A DNA stretch of 64,000 nucleotides from Hymenobacter sp. DG01 (GTDB taxonomy: Bacteria; Bacteroidota; Bacteroidia; Cytophagales; Hymenobacteraceae), in assembly GCF_006352025.1 (NCBI RefSeq), contig NZ_CP040936.1, forward strand, positions 4,094,001 to 4,158,000, read 5' to 3'. Positions 3,808 through 49,901 of the stretch are shown here, in pieces. The position numbers and the translations under genes were made by a program. Numbering within the stretch: position 1 is the stretch's first letter; each line of letters opens with the position of its first letter. The notes under the pieces are model-generated. The model was not told where the DNA came from. It was given only the letters and a program-made list of their open reading frames with translations, and searched no databases.

Positions 3808-5148
3808 TTAGGCTTCCTGGTCGTCGGGCTGCACGGGATGTACGGAGGGGTAGCGCGTCTGATACAGCGCCGATACGTTGCGCACGAGCAGGGCCCGCAG
3901 CTCATCAATATTCTCGCGCTCCTGCGCCGAAATAAAGATAACCGGGTCGTGGAGCTTGGCCATGTAGGTTGCTTTCAGCTGCTCCAGGGTGGGGCGGGGG
4001 GCCGGGCCATCCTCGTCGTCGGTGTTCATTTCCTCGAAGCCGCCGTGGTGCTCTACGGCCGGCTCCTGGGTGTACTGGTCAATCTTGTTGAACACCAGCA
4101 GCATGGGCTTGTCGGCGGCCTCAATATCCTTGAGGGTTTCGTTTACTACCGCAATCTGCTCCTCGAAGGTGGGGTGGGAAATGTCCACTACGTGCACCAG
4201 CAAATCAGCTTCCCGAATCTCATCGAGGGTGCTCTTGAAGCTCTCAATCAGGCGGGTGGGCAGCTTCCGGATAAACCCTACCGTGTCGGAGAGCAGGAAG
4301 GGCATGGTGTCGAGCACTACTTTGCGCACGGTGGAGTCCACGGTGGCGAAGAGCTTGTTTTCGGCAAACACCTCGGCCCGGCTCAGCAGGTTCATGATGG
4401 TGCTTTTGCCTACGTTGGTGTAGCCCACCAGGGCCACGCGCACCACGCCAGTGCGGGTTTTGCGCTGGGTGTGGCTTTGCTTGTCCAGCTCCTTGAGGCG
4501 GTCTTTCAGGAAGTCTATTCGCTCCCGCACCACGCGCCGGTCCGTCTCGATTTCGGTTTCCCCCGGTCCGCGTTGGCTTACGCCACCACCGCGCTGCTTG
4601 TCCAAGTGAGTCCAGAGGCCGGTGAGGCGGGGCAGCAGGTACTGGTACTGGGCCAGCTCTACCTGGGTGCGGGCCGTGGCCGACTTCGCCCGGCTGGCGA
4701 AAATATCAATAATGAGCAGGCTGCGGTCCACGATTTTGACCTTCAGCTCGGCCTCTAGATTGCGCAGCTGGGAAGGCGAAAGGTCGTCGTCGAAGATGAC
4801 CATGCTGGCCCCGGAGTGCTGCACGTAGGCCTTGATTTCTTCGAGCTTGCCCTCGCCCACAAACGTGCGGATGTCGGGCTTGTCGAGGCGCTGCACGAAG
4901 CGTTTGGTAACGGTGGCGCCGGCGGTTTCGGCCAGGAAGGCCAGCTCATCGAGGTACTCCTGGGTGCGGGCGTCGGCCTGGCGCTTGTCGGGCACGGCCA
5001 CCAGCACGGCGGTTTCGGCCTCGGGGGCGGTTTCGAAGGTGGCGTCTTTGTTGCCCTGGGCCAGAATGCGGCCGGCCCGGCCCTTCACGGTATCGAAGGA
5101 GCCGTGGTGGCGGGTGCTGTTCTGGCGGCGTTTAGATTCTTTGGCCAT
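3808..5148 (-). CDS. hflX: GTPase HflX (ribosome-splitting factor)
   Basis: 446 residues, normal for the family. The N-terminal HflX domain (to about residue 185) contains the glycine-rich signature QRGGGVSQRGPGETEIETDR before the GTPase domain. The G domain shows G1 GYTNVGKST, G3 DTVG and G4 NKID. Known HflX proteins bind the 50S subunit and split stalled 70S ribosomes, mostly under heat stress, in the cytoplasm. The C-terminal tail is acidic (MNTDDEDGPAPRP) and variable. The ATG is preceded by TACCTTTT (minus strand, 5156-5163), one base off the Bacteroidota -7 element. The gene lies 50 nt downstream of the cytochrome gene on the same strand. Confidence 0.95.
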   Translation of the reverse strand: MAKESKRRQNSTRHHGSFDTVKGRAGRILAQGNKDATFETAPEAETAVLVAVPDKRQADARTQEYLDELAFLAETAGATVTKRFVQRLDKPDIRTFVGEGKLEEIKAYVQHSGASMVIFDDDLSPSQLRNLEAELKVKIVDRSLLIIDIFASRAKSATARTQVELAQYQYLLPRLTGLWTHLDKQRGGGVSQRGPGETEIETDRRVVRERIDFLKDRLKELDKQSHTQRKTRTGVVRVALVGYTNVGKSTIMNLLSRAEVFAENKLFATVDSTVRKVVLDTMPFLLSDTVGFIRKLPTRLIESFKSTLDEIREADLLVHVVDISHPTFEEQIAVVNETLKDIEAADKPMLLVFNKIDQYTQEPAVEHHGGFEEMNTDDEDGPAPRPTLEQLKATYMAKLHDPVIFISAQERENIDELRALLVRNVSALYQTRYPSVHPVQPDDQEA

Positions 5149-5198
5149 ATTTTAGAAAAGGTAAGGGGCCGGGGAGAGCGGCGCGGGTAGGGGCAAGG

Positions 5199-5975
5199 TT
5201 AGCGCAGGGTAAGGGAGTATTCCGCCACCTGCCGGATCTGCTCTTCGGTGAGTTGGTCTTCGAAGCCGGGCATCTTGCCCAGGCCGTTGGTTACCATGTA
5301 CACGCGCCCAACGGTATTCAGGTTGCTTTTGGTCAGGTCGTGGGCGCCATTGAGGCCCAGCTTGCCGTCGGGGCCGTGGCACACGGCGCAGCGCTGCCCG
5401 AACAGGACTTTACCGGCCACCAGCGCCTCGGCTGGCTCGGAGACTTCGGAGGCTGCGGCCAGGGTAGCAGCCTCCGCGTTGGAAAGGCCGGGGGCGGCGT
5501 GGGCCGCCGTGTCAACGGGGGCGGCGGCCTCCGGGGTGGCCGTGGCCTCGGCCAGGCCCGGGCTGCTGGCGTAGGTAGTGCTGGTTGCGCCGTTTGGCAC
5601 GGCGGGCTTTTGCAGGGCCAGGGAGCCGGTTTCCGATACGCCGTACACGTACACAAACCCCAGCAGCGTCAGGACCACGCCCGGCTTCTGCTGGCGGCGC
5701 ATGGCCGCAATAGCCAGGGGCAGCAGCACCAGCACCAGGCCCAGCTTCACCCACACCCAGCCCGGCACGCTCCCGGGCAGGGTAGCCAGCAACGCCCCAC
5801 CCGAGGCCAGAATCAGCAGGCCCAGGCCCGAGTCCACGATGCGGGTGCGGGCCCGCAGAGCGCGCAGCGTGTCGAGGCGGCCCGCCAGCAGCAGCCCCGC
5901 TTTCAGCAGGTAAAACAGCAGAAACACCAGCACCACCACCAGGTGCAGGCGCAGGAAAAAAGGAAAAGCAGCCAT
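5199..5975 (-). CDS. Membrane-anchored cytochrome c domain protein
   Basis: 258 residues from the ATG at 5975; an upstream in-frame ATG at 6044 would put a non-hydrophobic tail in front and lies beyond a consensus promoter, so it was rejected. The N-terminal 125 residues hold about four hydrophobic helices (FLRLHLVVVLVFLLFYLLKA; LGLLILASGGALLATL; WVKLGLVLVLLPLAIAA; VVLTLLGFVYVYGV), resembling SirB/YtpI-like membrane proteins. An Ala/Pro/Thr linker follows, then a c-type haem domain with CAVCH and a downstream MPGF, where Met is the likely sixth ligand. It probably carries electrons at the periplasmic face of the inner membrane; the partner is unknown. Confidence 0.82.
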   Translation of the reverse strand: MAAFPFFLRLHLVVVLVFLLFYLLKAGLLLAGRLDTLRALRARTRIVDSGLGLLILASGGALLATLPGSVPGWVWVKLGLVLVLLPLAIAAMRRQQKPGVVLTLLGFVYVYGVSETGSLALQKPAVPNGATSTTYASSPGLAEATATPEAAAPVDTAAHAAPGLSNAEAATLAAASEVSEPAEALVAGKVLFGQRCAVCHGPDGKLGLNGAHDLTKSNLNTVGRVYMVTNGLGKMPGFEDQLTEEQIRQVAEYSLTLR

Positions 5976-5982
5976 AGAGGGG

Positions 5983-5990
5983 CAAAGATA
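5983..5990 (-). promoter_or_regulatory. Bacteroidota -7 element for the cytochrome gene
   Basis: TATCTTTG on the minus strand, an exact TAnnTTTG, 7 nt before the ATG at 5975. The transcript would have almost no leader. It supports the chosen start. Confidence 0.6.
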
Positions 5991-6084
5991 GGGGCTGCCG
6001 GGCAGGCACGAGGGGTTAGGCCGCTGGTGGGGGGTAGGGGGCACCGCTTATTCGCTGCTATACAACTCTGCTGCTCCGGCCCCG

Positions 6085-42110: not shown

Positions 42111-43637
42111 TTACCGCTGAGCCTGCGGGCCAAGCAGGGCTTCGAGGCGGCGCAGACGCTCTTCCAGCGCGGCGGTAGCGGTGGCCGATGAGGTGCCTGT
42201 GGCAGCCGTGGTTTGCAGCTGCTGCACTTGCTGGCGCAGGTGGGCGTTGTCGGCTTTCAGCGCCAGTACCTGCCGGTACAAGGCCTGAATGGCAATGAGG
42301 TTCACCCCGTCGAAGTCGGCTTGGTTGATGGTGGTGTCGTTGCCGATGACGCCCAGCGCGTCGTGGCCGAAGGCCTGGTAGAAGTCCTGAGCCATGGGGC
42401 CGTAGTGGCGCATGGTGCGCGGGTCCTGGCCGCGGTAGTTCCAGGAGCCCAGGCGCATCTGGTTGATGCGGGCCAGAAACTCGTTGCCGTCGGCCACCCG
42501 CACCAGCTCCTTCTTGGTTGAGTCGGACGTAACCTGCCAGGAGTTACTGCCCGCGTTCAGCACCACGCCTATGCTCATGGCAGCGTTAGAGTAGAGGCGG
42601 TAGCCCCCGGAGTAGCGGGCTGAAAACTGGTTGTTGACCGTGGCCCGCAAGGAGTCGTTAACGGAGGCATCGGCAATGGTGAAGGTGCCCGACCGGCCGG
42701 CGGCCGAGGCGAAGCGGCCCAGGGCCACGGCGTTGGCGGCATTAGCCGTGCATCGCTCGCCCAGTGCCACCGCAGCGCGGCCCCGGGCCAGAGAATTAAT
42801 GCCCGATACCAGGCTGTAGCTGCTCTTCACGCGGCAGAGGTTGCCAAACACGACCGAGGCAGTGGAGTTTTGATCGATAGTATTGCTGGCGCCGATAGCC
42901 GTGGAATAGCTACCCCGAACGGTGTTGTTGTACCCACTCGCTAGGCTGTAGTTGCCGCCCACAGAATTATTATAGCCGAAGGCAGCGCTGTAAAAGCCCA
43001 GGTTGCTGCCGTCCCACTGGGCCCCGTCGATGCCGCCGGCCCGGAAGGCCCCGTAGAACGACGACCACATCATCCGGTCGCCGGCGCCTGTGGTGGGTGC
43101 GGTTGTGGAACCATAGCCTACGTTGGTCCGGACCACAAAGCCGGCATCGGCATTGTCAAGGATCATTCCGGTTCCGTTTTCGTAGTTATCGGTCAAGCGC
43201 TGGCCGTTGAGCCTTACCAGGCCCACGTTACTGATAGTCAGACCTGCGGTGCCCGGTGTGGCCGCCGTGCCGCCCACCAGCCGCTTGCCGTTGAGCACCA
43301 GGTTTTGGCTGAGCACATGGTTACCGAGGTTGTCGGCGGCGCGGGCTTTATCTGGAATAAAGAGCCAGCTACCCCCCGCAGCGTACCAGAAGCCCTGGCG
43401 GCCATCGGTCTGGAATACCATCAGGCCATCTGGCGGCGTGGCAATGCCAACGCGAGTCACCGAGTCCATGCGCGGAATGAGCAGGCCCTTGCCCTGGGCG
43501 TCGATATCCAGGATGGCGGCGGGGTTGGGAGTGCCCGCCGTGCCAATACGTACGCCGCCGGGGGTGGTCTGGGCCTGGGCCGAAGATAGGCCCGCTAGCA
43601 GGCCCGCCACGAGGAAAGAGAAGTAGCCGTGTTTCAA
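42111..43637 (-). CDS. Secreted protein with YadA-like head repeats and S74 chaperone domain
   Basis: 508 residues from a TTG at 43637; the ORF runs open to 43823 but that part overlaps an unrelated pseudogene on the other strand, and the TTG gives a proper signal peptide (KHGYFSFLVAGLLAGLSSAQAQ). Head-type repeats (FYSAAFGYNNSVGGNYSLAS, YSTAIGASNTI, AVALGERCTANAANAVALGR) lead to a peptidase S74 intramolecular chaperone: SDSTKKELVRV with the Ser/Lys dyad region, FLARINQMRLGSWNYRGQDP, HYGPMAQDF and a C-terminal coiled coil (LALKADNAHLRQQVQQLQT). This is the tail-fibre type used for trimer folding, probably a trimeric surface fibre. Confidence 0.85.
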   Translation of the reverse strand: MKHGYFSFLVAGLLAGLSSAQAQTTPGGVRIGTAGTPNPAAILDIDAQGKGLLIPRMDSVTRVGIATPPDGLMVFQTDGRQGFWYAAGGSWLFIPDKARAADNLGNHVLSQNLVLNGKRLVGGTAATPGTAGLTISNVGLVRLNGQRLTDNYENGTGMILDNADAGFVVRTNVGYGSTTAPTTGAGDRMMWSSFYGAFRAGGIDGAQWDGSNLGFYSAAFGYNNSVGGNYSLASGYNNTVRGSYSTAIGASNTIDQNSTASVVFGNLCRVKSSYSLVSGINSLARGRAAVALGERCTANAANAVALGRFASAAGRSGTFTIADASVNDSLRATVNNQFSARYSGGYRLYSNAAMSIGVVLNAGSNSWQVTSDSTKKELVRVADGNEFLARINQMRLGSWNYRGQDPRTMRHYGPMAQDFYQAFGHDALGVIGNDTTINQADFDGVNLIAIQALYRQVLALKADNAHLRQQVQQLQTTAATGTSSATATAALEERLRRLEALLGPQAQR

Positions 43638-43746
43638 GAGGAAGGAAGTAGGAAAGGAAGTATAGGACAAGTCTTTACCCTGTGAAGGTAAGCGCCAAAT
43701 AGCATCCCAAAGAAAAGCACAACCCTCCTGCTTTGCTATATACTCT

Positions 43747-44098
43747 TGTCTGAAGCTTCTGACGGCGCTCATCGGCCCTGGCCGTAAACCCACGGCCTCC
43801 GGGCGACTCTTCCGCATCATCACCCGCCTGGCTGTACAGGAGCTGGAGGCGTGGTTTCTCGGCGACCGGGCCGCTATCCAAGCTGCCTACCCCCGCGTGC
43901 GCCCCCAACCCTTCGCGGCCTCCCCCACGACCCCAATACCATTGCCGGCACTTGGGAAAGCCTCTGGCGTGTGCTGCAGCAGGGCAAGTACTACCCCACC
44001 AGCAAAGCCAAAGTGGAATGGGCCGAAACCACATGGAGCCGAGGCGGAATACCTCGGCCAGTTTTCAGTATTTCTGTCATGGCCTGGCGCAGCTGTAA
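43747..44098 (+). pseudogene. DUF4276 gene remnant, three frames
   Basis: Frame 1 (43747 to about 43924) reads CLKLLTALIGPGRK ... ITRLAVQELEAWFLGDRAAI, with the ELEAWFLGD core. Frame 2 (about 43926 to 44030) reads HDPNTIAGTWESLWRVLQQG and YYPTSKAKVEWAE. Frame 3 (about 44030 to the TAA at 44098) reads HMEPRRNTSASFQYFCHGLA. Joined, these give the C-terminal two-thirds of a DUF4276 protein. The first shift falls in a run of C at 43922-43926; the second is at 44029-44033 and needs a small deletion. The 5' end and any AAA-ATPase partner usually encoded beside this family are missing. Host-like GC content. Confidence 0.8.
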
Positions 44099-44154
44099 CG
44101 CCCGCTGCCGGGGTGGCAATGGTTGCTGCCGAGGTGACAAGAGTCCCGTCTGGT

Positions 44155-44191
44155 GCGAGCTACAAGCTCGCTCTAGACGGGGGTGAACAAG
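44155..44191. repeat. Imperfect inverted repeat at the island edge
   Basis: CCCGTCT...GCGAGC / GCTCGC...AGACGGG, a 37-nt hairpin between the DUF4276 remnant and the AT-rich cassette. Resembles a REP-type palindrome. Confidence 0.55.
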
Positions 44192-44216: not shown

Positions 44217-44224
44217 TAGATTTG
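44217..44224 (+). promoter_or_regulatory. Bacteroidota -7 element for the GAPS4-like cassette
   Basis: TAGATTTG, exact TAnnTTTG, 27 nt before the ATG at 44251. The cassette thus carries its own promoter matched to Bacteroidota sigma factor. Confidence 0.6.
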
Positions 44225-44250
44225 TAGATTGGCCTGAACAAACTAATTAT

Positions 44251-45165
44251 ATGGGAGAAAAATCTAAAACGCTTGGCGAACTTGGTGAAAACAAAGTCAA
44301 GTATCTAATGGATTTAGTAGGCTGGAGCCCGAATACTAAAAATTTATCCATTCCTTGTATTGCCAGTGAGGAACATAAAGAAAATATTGAGCCTAGAAGG
44401 ACTCACGGTATTGACGCTCTTTACAGATATGAGTGTCCACTTGTAGAAAATAGCTTGGCATTCGTAGTGGTATCGTCTAAAAATCAAGGCGATTATAATG
44501 CTAAACCCACCATAGCCAAAAAGTACTTTGTTGAACTTGCTAATACAATAAACTGCTTTAAGGAATCTGAAATAAGAAAAGATATATCTAAGCTTTATAA
44601 ATTGAATAGAAAATATATTGGAATTGTATTTTGGCTGTCGGAAGGTGATGATGAAATTGATTTGATAAACAAATTTTCTGAGGAAAATTTGTTGCCAGGT
44701 GTTAAAAACACTTTTCATGCTATTGTATTGATAGATAATTTAAAGGCAAATTTTCTGTTTGATTCGGTAAATTATGTTAAAGACAATTACATTAATACCG
44801 AATTTTATTATCATAACACAGGTTACAATTCTTCTCCAACAAATAGGATTACCTCCGGTCATATATTGCCTGCAGAGGTGATTAATTCTGGCTTGTTGAC
44901 ATTCAAAGCTAGTGAAGGTGATATTGACTGTCTTATAGTAGTGTCCATAGAAAGGTATTCCGAAGAAGGTTTTAAGAGATTAATATCTTTATGTCAAAAT
45001 ATCACTGATAATTGGGTCGAAAAAGTTGTTATTCTTTTTGGTGAATACAACAACACTGATAGTTCTTCTGTTGACAAGGTGAAATTATCAGTAAAAGATG
45101 ATAAATTTACCAGAAAAATAGATGTAAATTCCTTTAAACAATCTCTGAGAAATGTCAATATCTAA
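44251..45165 (+). CDS. GAPS4a-like PD-(D/E)XK nuclease-fold protein
   Basis: 304 residues, soluble, strongly AT-rich compared with neighbours. The N-terminal 80 residues look like a restriction-endonuclease fold: helix with E10/E13 (KTLGELGENKVKYLMDLVGW), D55 in THGIDALYRYECPL and strand FVVVSSKNQ with K77; the acid expected two residues before K77 is Ser75. Next come KKYFVELANTINCFKESEIR and YIGIVFWLSEGDDEIDL. This order (GE helix, THGID, S-S-K, long helix with CFK, FWLSEG) matches my memory of GapS4a, the nuclease of the GAPS4 anti-phage pair. The gene overlaps the next by 14 nt, so they are co-translated. Identification from recall, not from search. Confidence 0.72.
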   Translation: MGEKSKTLGELGENKVKYLMDLVGWSPNTKNLSIPCIASEEHKENIEPRRTHGIDALYRYECPLVENSLAFVVVSSKNQGDYNAKPTIAKKYFVELANTINCFKESEIRKDISKLYKLNRKYIGIVFWLSEGDDEIDLINKFSEENLLPGVKNTFHAIVLIDNLKANFLFDSVNYVKDNYINTEFYYHNTGYNSSPTNRITSGHILPAEVINSGLLTFKASEGDIDCLIVVSIERYSEEGFKRLISLCQNITDNWVEKVVILFGEYNNTDSSSVDKVKLSVKDDKFTRKIDVNSFKQSLRNVNI

Positions 45166-46066
45166 CCTTGAAGATAATAGTGCATCTGAATTCTGGTTGC
45201 CTCAAGGAGGGCAGTTAATATCTATTTTGTCTTCGTATAATATCAAAGATTTTGACTTGTATTCCTTGCTTAAGAAAAAAGGAATGCTAGTGGGTGAAAG
45301 AGATAGAAAGCAAATGATAATGCTTCTTGCTTCAACTCTTATTACTCCAGCTGATTTTATTTATTTAGCTAAGCGTATCTCTGATAGAGAGGATAAATAC
45401 AGAACAATAGAGGCTAGTATTCAGGCTAACGAAGACGCTGATGTAATAAGTGATATAATAACTAAGGAATATATAGATAGACTGATGGGGGCATCATCTG
45501 ATAAGTATCCGACCTTTTCTATAAGAGATATTGAGTATGAAAGCCACAGTGATGGTAAAGTTTCTGTTATAGGTAAAGTCGAAACCCACGACTGGGTTAG
45601 AAGCTTGCAGGCTACATCTAAACTTCATGATTTCTCCTTTGAAGTAGAGTATACAGGAAACTCTGTTCGATATATATCGGGTACGACAACATTAGAGACA
45701 AAAAAACTAATCAGATATATCCGTGATGAAGTTAATAAAACCTTAAAAACAAACGGTGTGGTTAATAGAAGATCTAAAATTTTCATTTTAAGAAATAATT
45801 ACTTTAATAATCAAATATCTATGTTTGAGTTTTTTAGGAAATTTGAATCAAATGAATATTCGTGTTTAAAATTTATTAAAACTATCGATATTATATTTAA
45901 TATCCATGAGCTTGCTAGAGTCCCTAAAGAATTCAAGTGGATGAAGGAAAAAATAAACGAAATTTCCCTTAAAGGTGATAATATAGAATCTAATGATGTT
46001 GTTAAATTAGGTGAAAAGGTTGCTTGGATTTTGGGGAAATTGAGTCTGAATTCAGTTTTACAGTAA
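45152..46066 (+). CDS. GAPS4b-like partner protein (apparently cut short by a frameshift)
   Basis: 304 residues to the in-frame stop at 46066. The N-terminus has the winged-helix-like pattern SEFWLPQGGQLISILSSYNI followed by YSLLKKKGMLVGERDRKQM and LLASTLITPADFIYLAKRIS, which recalls the GAPS4b N-terminal domain. The rest is Lys/Ile/Asn-rich, with no catalytic motif seen. The last 11 residues (KLSLNSVLQ and before) probably lie out of frame: at the G run 46033-46036 one extra G would continue into GEIESEFSFTVNELQGRCVI, encoded to 46314, giving about 385 residues. GAPS4 needs both proteins for phage defence in published work; activity here depends on whether the shift is real. Confidence 0.7.
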   Translation: MSISNLEDNSASEFWLPQGGQLISILSSYNIKDFDLYSLLKKKGMLVGERDRKQMIMLLASTLITPADFIYLAKRISDREDKYRTIEASIQANEDADVISDIITKEYIDRLMGASSDKYPTFSIRDIEYESHSDGKVSVIGKVETHDWVRSLQATSKLHDFSFEVEYTGNSVRYISGTTTLETKKLIRYIRDEVNKTLKTNGVVNRRSKIFILRNNYFNNQISMFEFFRKFESNEYSCLKFIKTIDIIFNIHELARVPKEFKWMKEKINEISLKGDNIESNDVVKLGEKVAWILGKLSLNSVLQ

Positions 46067-46314
46067 ATGAACTGCAAGGCAGATGTGTTATTAAGTACGG
46101 TTTTCCAGCTGGTCATAAAAAAACAAGAAAAGGTAATAGTAGGAGTGTTGAGTTTGAAACTAAATTAGTAAGTATAGAAATGAATAATAAAAGTTCTATT
46201 GTTAAAAAAGCAATTGTTGCAGATTTTAATGCGAGAAAAGCTCTTATTTGTAGCGAGATGATAAATATTGGAAAGTTGAAAAACGATGTTGATAATCAAA
46301 TAAATTTGATATGA
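46037..46314 (+). pseudogene. C-terminal fragment of the GAPS4b-like gene
   Basis: Reads in the next frame: IESEFSFTVNELQGRCVIKY, GFPAGHKKTRKGNSRSVEFE and KKAIVADFNARKALICSEMI to the stop at 46314. The only start codon is a TTG at 46024 inside the previous gene, with no ribosome site, so it is best seen as the C-terminal third of the same protein. The composition is the same as upstream. A clean terminator hairpin follows only after this fragment, which also argues that the original gene ended here. Confidence 0.7.
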
Positions 46315-46327
46315 ATCCTTTGTAAAA

Positions 46328-46365
46328 CAGAGGGCTTCCTAGTTAGACTAGGAAGCCCTCTGTTT
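46328..46365. terminator. Terminator between the cassette and mfd
   Basis: CAGAGGGCTTCCTAGT, loop TAG, perfect complement, then TTT. On the minus strand the stem is followed by TTTTACAAAGG. It can end the cassette and mfd. Confidence 0.8.
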
Positions 46366-46373
46366 AATCATTC

Positions 46374-49300
46374 CTACACCCCTACCTTCTCCACGCTGCC
46401 CAACTCGCTCAGGATACGCTTGGCGGCCTGGACGTTCTTCACGTCCTCGACGGAGAGGATGAGCTGCTCCTTGCGCTCCTTCATGGAAGCGGAGCGGGGG
46501 TGGGTTTGCACGTAGCTGAGGATGTTGCCGAAGGTGTCGCTCTGGAAGTACCGCTCGTTGTTGGTGGCCGGAATAAAGCCTTTCAGCAGGTTCTTCTTCA
46601 GCGTCAGCTTCTCGAAGCCCACCTGGCAGGCTTGCCAGCGCAGGCGCACGATGTCGGCCAGCTGCTCCACCTCCTGGGGTAGCGGCCCGAAGCGGTCCAC
46701 CATGCCGTTGATGACTTTGCGCAGGTCCTCGGGGCTTTTGGCCCTATCCAGTTTGCTGTACAGCTGCAGGCGCTCCGATACGCTGCTCACGTAGGAATCG
46801 GGGATGAGGATTTGCAGGTCCGTTTCGATGTTGCACTCCTTGGGGCCGCTGGTGCCGGCCGCTTCCTGCAGGCGCTGGGTAGGGTCGCCGAGGAACAGGT
46901 CGCGGAACTCGGTTTCCTTCAGCTCCTGCACCGCCTCGTCCAGAATCTGGTGGTAGGTCTCGAAGCCCAGGTCGTTGATAAAGCCCGACTGCTCGCCGCC
47001 CAGCAGGTTGCCCGCCCCCCGGATGTCCAGGTCGCGCATGGCCACGTTGAAGCCCGCGCCCAAGTCCGAGAATTCCTCCAGGGTGCTCAGGCGCTTGCGG
47101 GCGTCGCTCGGCAGGCCCGCCACCGGGGGCGTGAGCAGGTAGCAATACGCCTTCTTGTTGGAGCGGCCCACCCGGCCCCGCATCTGGTGCAGGTCAGAGA
47201 GGCCGTGCATGTGGGCCCGGTTGATGATGATGGTGTTAGCGTTCGGAATATCCAGGCCACTCTCGATGAGCGTGGTGCTCACCAGCACGTCGTAGTCGCC
47301 ATCCACGAACTTCATCATTCGCTTTTCCAGCAGGTCGCCGTCCATCTGCCCGTGCACGTAGGTCACGCGGGCATCGGGCACCAGGCGCAGAATCATATTG
47401 GCCTGCTCCTCAATGTCCTTCACCCGGTTATGCACATAAAACACCTGCCCACCCCGCTTCAGCTCGCGGGCAATGGCGTCGCGCACCAGCATCTCATCAA
47501 ATACGTGCAGCTCGGTTTGCACGGGTTGGCGGTTGGGTGGGGGGGTAGCAATTACCGACAGGTCGCGGGCGCCCATCAAGGAGAAGTGCAGGGTGCGCGG
47601 AATGGGCGTGGCCGAGAGGGTCAGCGTATCCACGTTCACCTTCAGCTCCTTGAGCTTGTCCTTGGTTTTTACCCCGAACTTCTGCTCCTCGTCGATGATG
47701 AGCAGGCCCAGGTCCTTGAACTTCACGTCCTTGTTCGTGAGGCGGTGCGTACCGATGAGGATGTCGGTTTTGCCCTCCGCCACCCGGCCCAGGGTTTCCT
47801 TGATTTGCTTGGTAGTCTTGAAGCGGTTTACGTACTCCACCGTCACGGGCAGGTTGCTAAGCCGCTCCCGGAAGGTTTTGTAGTGCTGCATGGCCAGAAT
47901 GGTAGTGGGTACCAGCACGGCTACCTGCTTGCCATCGGCCACGGCCTTGAAGGCGGCCCGAATGGCTACTTCCGTCTTGCCGAAGCCCACGTCGCCGCAC
48001 ACAAGGCGGTCCATGGGGTGGGGCACCTCCATGTCGCGCTTCACGTCTTCAGTGGCCTTGGCCTGGTCGGGCGTGTCCTCGTAGATGAAGCTCGATTCCA
48101 GCTCGGCCTGCATAAAGGAGTCGTGGGCGAAAGCGTGGCCGGGCGCGGTTTTGCGCTTGGCGTACAGCCGGATCAGTTCGGCCGCAATATCCTTCACCTT
48201 CTTCTTAACCGACTTCTTCTTGTTTTCCCACTCCGGCGAGCCCAGCTTGCTCATGGTGGGCGGCGTGCCCTCGGCCCCGCTGTACTTGGCAATTTTGTGC
48301 AGGGCGTGGATGCTCACCGTCAGCACGTCGTCGTCGCGGTACACCAGCCGGATGGCCTCCTGCACCCGGTCGTTGATTTCTACCTGCGTGAGGCCCGCAA
48401 AGCGCGCAATGCCGTAGTCCTGGTGCACCACGTAGTCGCCGGGCACCAGGGTGCGTAGCTCCTTCAGGGTCAGGGCCTTTTTCTTCGAGAACTTCCTACC
48501 CTCCTGGGCGCGGTAAAACCGCTCGAACAGCTGGTGGTCGGTGTACACCACCAGTTTCAGGTTTTCGTCGATGAAGCCCTCGCGCAAGCCCAACAGCATG
48601 TGCTGAAACTGTACGTTGTTATCCAGCTCATCGAAGATGGTGCGCAGGCGGTCGGCCTGGCGGACCTGCTCGGCGGCAATAATATTGGTGTAGCCCTTCG
48701 CCTGGTTGTCGTGCAGGTTCTTGACGATGCGGTTGAAGTCCTTGTTGAAGCTGGGCTGGGGCTTGGTAGTGAACTGGAATTCCTCAGCGCCCTTGAAGTA
48801 AAAGCGCTTGCCGAACTCCACCACCGGAAAGCCTTCCAGCAGCTTCTTGAACGTCTTGCCCGACTCAAACAAATCGGCGGGCTTGCTCACTACCTGGGTG
48901 CCGCCCGCTACCTCCAGCAGCTCCTTAAAGCTGGCTTCGGCCTTGTCGAACGACTCATCCACCACGTCCAGGGTCTGGCGCACGTCCTTGGCCCAGATGC
49001 AGGTGTTCTTCGGGATGAAGTCCAGGAAAGCCTCCCGCGTTTCCTGCAGCAGCTTGGTTTGCACGTTCGGGATGATGCTCACCTGCTGGCGCTTCTCCAC
49101 CGACAGCTGACTTTCGGGGTCAAACGTCCGAATCGTCTCCACCTCGTCCCCGAACAGCTCGATACGGTAGGGCAGCTCGTTGGCGTAGGAGAAAATATCC
49201 ACGATACCGCCGCGCACCGCAAACTGCCCCGCCTCATACACAAAGTCGGTCCGCTCAAAGTCGTACTCCGCCAGCATGTCGCTGATGAAGTTTACGTCCA

Positions 49301-49901
49301 GCTTGTCGCCCACTTTCACCACAAAGGTGTTGGCCACCAGGCTTTTCTTGTTGATAACCTTCTCGAACAAGGCCTCCGGATACGTCACAATAAGCGCCCC
49401 CGTGGTACCGGGCACCTGGCGTGGGGTAGCCTCCGGCGTTTCCGTCACCTCGCCTGAGCCCAGCACCGCCAGCGGCGAGGCTGGCGTTTCGGCCGCCGCG
49501 GCGGCCGCTTCCCGGCGGGCCGTGTTGAGGCGGTTGAGCACTTCGGCCCGCATCAGCACATTGGCGTTTTCCGTCTCATCGAAGCGGTAGGGGTGCTTGT
49601 AGGAGCTCGGGAACAGCAGCACCTCCGGCCCGTCGGGGAGCAGGCTCTGCAGGTCGGCCATGAAGTAGGCAGCTTCTTCCTTATCGTGCAGGATAAACAG
49701 GTGGGACAGCGGGCCATGCGTGACGGCGGCGGCCACCACCGCATCCTGGCTGCCTACCAGACCGCGCAGCTGCAGGCGCAAATCAGCGTTCCGGCTTTGG
49801 TCGGGGGTAGGGATAGGCCGGGCCGCCCCGTGCAGGCGGGCCGACAGAATCTGCACGTCGGTATCGAGGCGGTATAGACGAAGGAAATCGGAGACTTTCA
49901 A
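46374..49901 (-). CDS. mfd: Transcription-repair coupling factor Mfd
   Basis: 1175 residues, full length. Domains in order: UvrB-like N-terminal region (GLVGSQDAVVAAAVTHGPLS; IVTYPEALFEKV; AGQFAVRGGIVDIFSYA), the RNA polymerase interaction domain (VPGDYVVHQDYGIARFAG ... LVYRDDDVLTVSIHALHKI), the RecG-type translocase (Walker A GDVGFGKTEVAI; DEEQ in LLIIDEEQKFGV; SATPIPRTL; VHGQMDGDLLEKRM; QMRGRVGRSNKKAYCYLL) and the C-terminal TRCF domain. Mfd pushes stalled RNA polymerase off damaged DNA and recruits UvrA. Next to the AT-rich cassette, it marks the stable chromosomal flank. Confidence 0.97.
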   Translation of the reverse strand: MKVSDFLRLYRLDTDVQILSARLHGAARPIPTPDQSRNADLRLQLRGLVGSQDAVVAAAVTHGPLSHLFILHDKEEAAYFMADLQSLLPDGPEVLLFPSSYKHPYRFDETENANVLMRAEVLNRLNTARREAAAAAAETPASPLAVLGSGEVTETPEATPRQVPGTTGALIVTYPEALFEKVINKKSLVANTFVVKVGDKLDVNFISDMLAEYDFERTDFVYEAGQFAVRGGIVDIFSYANELPYRIELFGDEVETIRTFDPESQLSVEKRQQVSIIPNVQTKLLQETREAFLDFIPKNTCIWAKDVRQTLDVVDESFDKAEASFKELLEVAGGTQVVSKPADLFESGKTFKKLLEGFPVVEFGKRFYFKGAEEFQFTTKPQPSFNKDFNRIVKNLHDNQAKGYTNIIAAEQVRQADRLRTIFDELDNNVQFQHMLLGLREGFIDENLKLVVYTDHQLFERFYRAQEGRKFSKKKALTLKELRTLVPGDYVVHQDYGIARFAGLTQVEINDRVQEAIRLVYRDDDVLTVSIHALHKIAKYSGAEGTPPTMSKLGSPEWENKKKSVKKKVKDIAAELIRLYAKRKTAPGHAFAHDSFMQAELESSFIYEDTPDQAKATEDVKRDMEVPHPMDRLVCGDVGFGKTEVAIRAAFKAVADGKQVAVLVPTTILAMQHYKTFRERLSNLPVTVEYVNRFKTTKQIKETLGRVAEGKTDILIGTHRLTNKDVKFKDLGLLIIDEEQKFGVKTKDKLKELKVNVDTLTLSATPIPRTLHFSLMGARDLSVIATPPPNRQPVQTELHVFDEMLVRDAIARELKRGGQVFYVHNRVKDIEEQANMILRLVPDARVTYVHGQMDGDLLEKRMMKFVDGDYDVLVSTTLIESGLDIPNANTIIINRAHMHGLSDLHQMRGRVGRSNKKAYCYLLTPPVAGLPSDARKRLSTLEEFSDLGAGFNVAMRDLDIRGAGNLLGGEQSGFINDLGFETYHQILDEAVQELKETEFRDLFLGDPTQRLQEAAGTSGPKECNIETDLQILIPDSYVSSVSERLQLYSKLDRAKSPEDLRKVINGMVDRFGPLPQEVEQLADIVRLRWQACQVGFEKLTLKKNLLKGFIPATNNERYFQSDTFGNILSYVQTHPRSASMKERKEQLILSVEDVKNVQAAKRILSELGSVEKVGV

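Follow-up and report, generated by a model that had tools for sequence, protein, structure and literature searches.

Is the AT-rich pair of genes next to mfd in Hymenobacter sp. DG01 a GAPS4 anti-phage system, and is it whole? The pair lies in a 64,000-nucleotide stretch of contig NZ_CP040936.1 (positions 4,094,001 to 4,158,000), which we call the window; coordinates count from its first nucleotide. An original prediction, made from the sequence alone, proposed a cassette resembling GAPS4 at a site resembling a defense hot spot, one that would widen the known range of the system. (GAPS4 was reportedly described by Mahata et al. 2024, Nat. Microbiol., and, going by the title of that paper, is said to be carried by the gamma-mobile-trio element.) We think it likely that a GAPS4 cassette was imported at a hot spot at the 3' end of mfd and that its second gene, gapS4b, later lost its reading frame. 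We also infer that it arrived by crossover and that GAPS4 joins a sensor to a nuclease.

A foreign GAPS4 cassette with an out-of-frame second gene

The features that carry this reading are:

44251-45165, forward strand: gapS4a, intact, 304 amino acids (aa), encoding a PD-(D/E)XK-like nuclease (NF047933, E = 3e-81, 273 bits)
45152-46066, forward strand: first part of gapS4b, an open frame of 304 aa (NF047934 profile positions 1-271 of 355, 131.8 bits)
46013-46018, forward strand: frame-change site of gapS4b; homology to the relatives P0007-P0009 resumes in the other frame from 46018
46018-46314, forward strand: remainder of gapS4b in the other frame (NF047934 profile positions 281-348, 30.9 bits), with its stop at 46312-46314
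46374-49901, reverse strand: mfd, an open reading frame (ORF) of 1175 aa whose 3' end borders the hot spot

The cassette's DNA is foreign and imported. As first noticed, GC content falls abruptly at about 44.2-46.3 kb, from about 0.60-0.61 outside to 0.27-0.35 inside (about 0.32 for the cassette versus about 0.61 for its surroundings). Third-codon-position GC (GC3) is 0.27-0.28 in both cassette ORFs versus 0.86 in mfd. Across the window and the adjoining 40 kb to its left and right (144 kb in all), just 3 of 285 intervals of 1500 bp are below 0.42 GC, and all three are the cassette's own.

By profile, the first protein is GapS4a: its 273 bits are over the curated cut-off of 270 for NF047933, though close to it. 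The predicted residues (E10, E13, D55, S75, and K77) are all at their proposed positions, and structure prediction gives the N-terminal half an alpha-beta-beta-beta-alpha-beta arrangement (predicted local distance difference test score of 80), so GapS4a is predicted to have the PD-(D/E)XK nuclease fold. Ser75, which had been pointed out as replacing the usual acid, is there, but it is not peculiar to this protein. We rejected it as the mark of a dead or special enzyme because all 21 aligned GapS4a proteins have serine there.

The second protein is GapS4b by profile, but the gene is not whole. Residues 1-287 of the first part align with P0007-P0009 at 55-67% identity, and the last 98 residues, encoded from 46018 on, are 57-69% identical to the same proteins in a different frame. 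(The ORF at 46024-46314 is what matches the end of the NF047934 profile, at 30.9 bits.) These closest whole relatives are 386-388 aa long. Because the two homologous parts sit in different frames, gapS4b is out of frame, and the idea of an intact system fails. With 131.8 and 30.9 bits in two frames, GapS4b misses the curated cut-off of 300 for NF047934; so do 3 of 6 whole GapS4b-like proteins encoded beside or fused to GapS4a (L002, 234; L006, 195; L007, 130), while L003, L004, and L005 pass with 373-378. The proposed family assignment thus stands for GapS4a, and for GapS4b below the cut-off. Pfam scans of the two cassette proteins gave no match, although PF26115 and PF26110 are assigned to them in the protein database; PADLOC gave no match for either. 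The locus resembles GAPS4 in the profiles of both proteins, in gene order (gapS4a, then directly gapS4b on the same strand), in the 14-nt overlap of the genes, which had been correctly predicted, and in the predicted nuclease fold; it differs in the frame of gapS4b and in its location beside mfd.

With the break, GapS4b loses most of its second domain, and we predict that the pair is impaired or inactive. Conservation after the break matches that before it, so the break is recent, an error, or tolerated; we think that the locus was probably broken recently. Could it be a sequencing or assembly error in a system that is intact and active? No internal stop interrupts the segment past the break, which is conserved as much as the segment before it, and the break falls in a short run of A. 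But the run has only four bases, the genome is in 2 contigs, and neighboring genes rarely show such changes. We compared the window and 80 kb of the same genome with the proteins of two close genomes, G507 and G519. With looser settings, frame changes appeared in 0 of 83 (G507) and 2 of 80 (G519) matched proteins, and internal stops in 7 and 4 matches, respectively. A stricter run gave no frame changes in 73 and 71 matches and flagged 6 and 4, every one for an internal stop. (The ORFs were picked mechanically and some are probably antisense frames, so we do not read internal stops as broken genes.) Indel errors therefore look rare, and these comparisons favor a real mutation at gapS4b; we consider an error unlikely.

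A second alternative is that this is a split variant of GapS4b, made as two polypeptides or by ribosomal frameshifting. In another genome of the genus, G539, gapS4b (L041, 2402-3259) is truncated by an in-frame stop about 10 residues before the position of the window's break; it too ends just before the same C-terminal segment, and its remainder is still recognizable. The window's second part could also start at a TTG at 46024. But by itself the second part lacks some of its domain, no classical slippery heptamer was seen by eye at the break, the one fit to the pattern, T TTG GGG, falls after homology has already switched frame, and copies broken elsewhere exist as well (L034 and L039). A split variant seems improbable to us, more so than an error. 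As a specific candidate, programmed -1 frameshifting at TTTTGGGG was rejected: homology has switched to the other frame by 46018, upstream of TTTTGGGG.

Among 31 GAPS4 loci in named genomes, 24 have both ORFs open and of about normal length and three (L021, L022, and L040) stop at or near a contig end. The other four (L020, L034, L038, and L039) look broken, so broken copies of GAPS4 are not unusual.

A hot spot of foreign cassettes beside mfd

Is the location beside mfd a coincidence? We searched 61 genomes of the genus, drawn evenly from a larger group. The C-terminal part of mfd was matched in all 61, in G028 via a distant paralog only. We examined 59 genomes (the window's and 58 others), leaving out G028, which has no full mfd match, and G479, for which the mfd flank was not included. 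In 18 of the 59, GC is below 0.42 in the first 1500 bp past the mfd stop. All 18 belong to the 32 loci in which the C-terminal part of mfd is roughly 80% or more identical to the window's; none of the 27 remaining loci, below that identity, has an AT-rich flank. As controls, the 3' flank of a helicase gene that we take to be recG-like was AT-rich in 0 of 20 of these genomes, and 0 of 317 intervals of 1500 bp were below 0.42 GC in 160 kb each of G507 and G519.

The AT-rich cassettes are varied. Comparing the first 2000 bp with tblastx, we found related cassettes in 1 of 153 pairs (L088-L127). Neither GapS4a nor GapS4b was found at the other 58 flanks, 17 of which hold other cassettes. We scanned 29 low-GC ORFs of at least 100 aa, from these 17 cassettes and the displaced ones of L076 and L085, along with one gene of L074. 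Defense-linked proteins are present in 11 of the 18 cassettes, though many of the matches reflect shared ATPase domains and are by themselves no proof of membership in the named systems. By cassette, the contents are as follows (L088 and L126, on the last two lines, are not among the 11):

the window's: GAPS4
L079, L083, L084, and L086: OLD/AAA_15-type ATPases
L081: HEC-03A/B
L089: Clp_N-KAP
L090 and L092: NACHT
L121: PDC-M31A/B
L124: NsnA/GmrSD with HEPN
L088: a weak PD-T4-10_B match
L126: HATPase domains only, and a weak HSDR_N_2 match

The main proteins of the remaining cassettes (L078, L091, L119, L120, and L127) had no family match in these scans; a small ORF of L120 encodes a STAS-like domain. 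Overall, varied AT-rich foreign cassettes recur at the 3' end of mfd in this genus, which makes it a hot spot, as the original prediction had supposed for this site. Literature searches for a hot spot at mfd matched either no paper or only a few.

These neighbors also bear on what the pair is for. It could be a selfish, toxin-like nuclease pair that is kept by addiction and has no part in defense: it is a foreign two-gene operon with a putative defense role. But relatives often carry defense-linked cassettes at this site, and neither protein matches an antitoxin family. We regard addiction as very improbable.

How cassettes may arrive

If GAPS4 was imported as a defense cassette, how did it reach mfd? 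Scanning the 29 cassette ORFs gave no integrase match. Of 20 loci tested, 5 (L076, L077, L080, L085, and L088) carry an additional copy of the mfd 3' end. These displaced copies are 107-400 bp long, 85-98% identical, and 1.6-5.1 kb further out; G001 also has an mfd fragment beside mfd. In L076 and L085, an AT-rich cassette directly follows the displaced copy. Judging by sequence, this is the pattern expected from single crossovers between incoming DNA that carries an mfd 3' end and the chromosome. An incoming cassette may bring along a piece of the mfd 3' end and recombine by crossover with the chromosomal mfd 3' end; the new cassette would then adjoin the whole mfd, and the older occupant, with its mfd fragment, would be pushed outward.

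In the window, no displaced copy of the mfd 3' end was found at the far edge of the cassette, so for this cassette the route is an inference. With no attachment-site repeat of the mfd 3' end found there, site-specific integration is unsupported for the window's copy.

Edges of the cassette

Further features lie at or beyond the edges of the cassette:

42111-43646, reverse strand: Peptidase_S74 or adhesin-like gene on the far side (PF13884, E = 2.2e-07)
43786-44073, forward strand: decayed HEC-01B/DUF4276 gene, 288 bp, with 82% DNA identity to L073 and L074
44100-44140, reverse strand: two units of a degenerate 21-bp repeat, also present beyond several mfd-side cassettes
44157-44170, forward strand: GAGCTACAAGCTCG, a palindrome like the repetitive extragenic palindromic (REP) elements, at the far edge
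44217-44224, forward strand: TAGATTTG, a candidate -7 promoter element, 26 nt upstream of the ATG (weak evidence)
46325-46365, no strand assigned: 19-pair hairpin in the gap where gapS4b and mfd converge (RNA fold of -33.7 kcal/mol, z = -8.2)

As predicted, the cassette sits between a decayed gene and mfd. The decayed gene corresponds to the second gene of HEC-01 (an AAA ATPase with a DUF4276 protein), of which L073 and L074 carry an intact copy downstream of mfd; the L074 copy matches HEC-01B (E = 3.3e-83) and also PF14103. In the window there is only this remnant. Another defense pair thus occupied the site earlier.

Two proposed signals held up in part. The TAnnTTTG promoter is present as TAGATTTG, but it is weak evidence because TANNTTTG occurs 20 times in the window versus 16.8 expected, and we rejected the promoter as evidence by itself. 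The closing terminator corresponds to the hairpin at 46325-46365, which is possibly a two-way terminator; a simple terminator scan did not pick it up.

The GAGCTACAAGCTCG palindrome has a single match in the 144 kb around the window, the one at 44157-44170. Since just 5 of 18 cassettes have a match 250 bp or less from the far edge, we rejected it as a general boundary mark. Degenerate 21-bp tandem repeats are seen past several cassettes (for example, L078 1747-1926 and L081 2053-2232, counted from the mfd stop); the pattern was derived partly from the 44100-44140 region itself.

Distribution of GAPS4

Does the cassette widen the known range of the system? GapS4a occurs in 2 of 59 genomes (the window's and one relative), in 3 of 204 from the family, and in 6 of 395 sampled across the phylum, with the window's included each time. 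The 31 loci in named genomes comprise 24 from Bacteroidota, 5 from Gammaproteobacteria, and one metagenome-assembled genome each from Saccharibacteria and Bacillota. (They were found with one peptide pattern and assigned to taxa by record title, so this is a partial census.) NCBI models already exist for both proteins (NF047933 and NF047934). Given these counts and models, GAPS4 in Bacteroidota is not a new range, and this part of the prediction was mistaken. Relatives are also found on two plasmids (Pantoea and Ewingella) and six IMG/VR contigs; none was found in the phage records searched. A literature search for GAPS4 with phage or defense terms matched no paper. In four loci from differently named Bacteroidota (L030, L031, L032, and L037), the 12.9 kb surrounding GAPS4 are 99.96-100% identical, which from sequence may be one mobile element or contamination.

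A predicted fold for GapS4b and an apparent exchange of nucleases

What might the two proteins do together? In a structural model of P0007, a GapS4b relative, there are two tandem sheet-and-helix domains, and the fold of GapS4b is predicted to resemble RdgC/Iml3. This is also the fold of lambda RexA, although RexA itself was not among the fold-comparison rows listed for the model. GapS4b differs from RdgC, RexA, and Iml3-CENP-L in having an extra N-terminal helical part and a nuclease partner, and in lacking sequence similarity to solved structures: a profile of 19 GapS4b proteins had one match among PDB sequences, to YceI at chance level (E = 0.35).

Some relatives encode both proteins as a single GapS4a-GapS4b chain. 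L002 (1501-3630) encodes 709 aa, and L042 (1465-3630) has an open frame of 722 codons, or 710 aa from the first ATG; one is from a genome of the window's order and one from its family. By their sequences, such fusions are consistent with a one-to-one complex.

In a third arrangement, L007 (L096, 8594-11281) encodes 895 aa, with about 208 residues added at the N terminus, then a degenerate GapS4a, then GapS4b. A database search that scored only the 7997 candidates sharing the most words found at least 142 relatives at E <= 0.001, including the query's own record; 120 of these were listed, and 113 with 860-930 aa were aligned. In all 113, the N-terminal domain has invariant E34, D43, Q57, and K59. 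At the GapS4a Asp55 position there are 55 D, 39 N, and 17 E. At the Lys77 position, 89 of the 113 have I, L, or F, and lysine is not among the four commonest residues. These three-part proteins (L007/P0010) resemble GAPS4 in joining GapS4a-like and GapS4b-like regions in one chain, and differ in the extra domain, the loss of Lys77, and the variable Asp55. The cutting domain has apparently been exchanged, with a new N-terminal domain and a GapS4a that lacks the catalytic lysine. The new domain had no credible match in Pfam or PDB sequences; by eye we presume a likeness to Cap4/DUF4297. A few genes from the fused protein, L096 encodes a retron-type reverse transcriptase (4915-6063; relative of Ec86, E = 4e-33).

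Meaning of the locus

The hot spot at the mfd 3' end, the predicted fold of GapS4b, and the fused family of about 890 aa are new in this analysis. Most likely, a GAPS4 cassette was inserted into the chromosome next to the 3' end of mfd and later lost the gapS4b reading frame. When intact, GapS4b would grip DNA with a two-domain saddle like that of RdgC or RexA and recognize an intermediate of phage replication or recombination; its partner GapS4a, a putative PD-(D/E)XK nuclease, would then cut DNA and stop the infection. More tentatively, and with somewhat less than even confidence, we suggest that GAPS4 is a modular DNA-surveillance machine, in which a RexA/RdgC-like clamp (GapS4b) sits on a tandem nuclease-fold scaffold (GapS4a) with an exchangeable cutting domain, and that it is taken up along with unrelated machines at the 3' end of mfd, where crossover at mfd would enlarge the hot spot.

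The cassette itself is one more GAPS4, probably inactivated. The predicted fold of GapS4b and the apparent swap of nucleases lead to a concrete sensor-plus-effector model for the system. For finding unknown defense systems in this genus, the 3' end of mfd is a constant location to search, and the cassettes just after mfd in L078, L091, L119, L120, and L127 are candidates for such systems.
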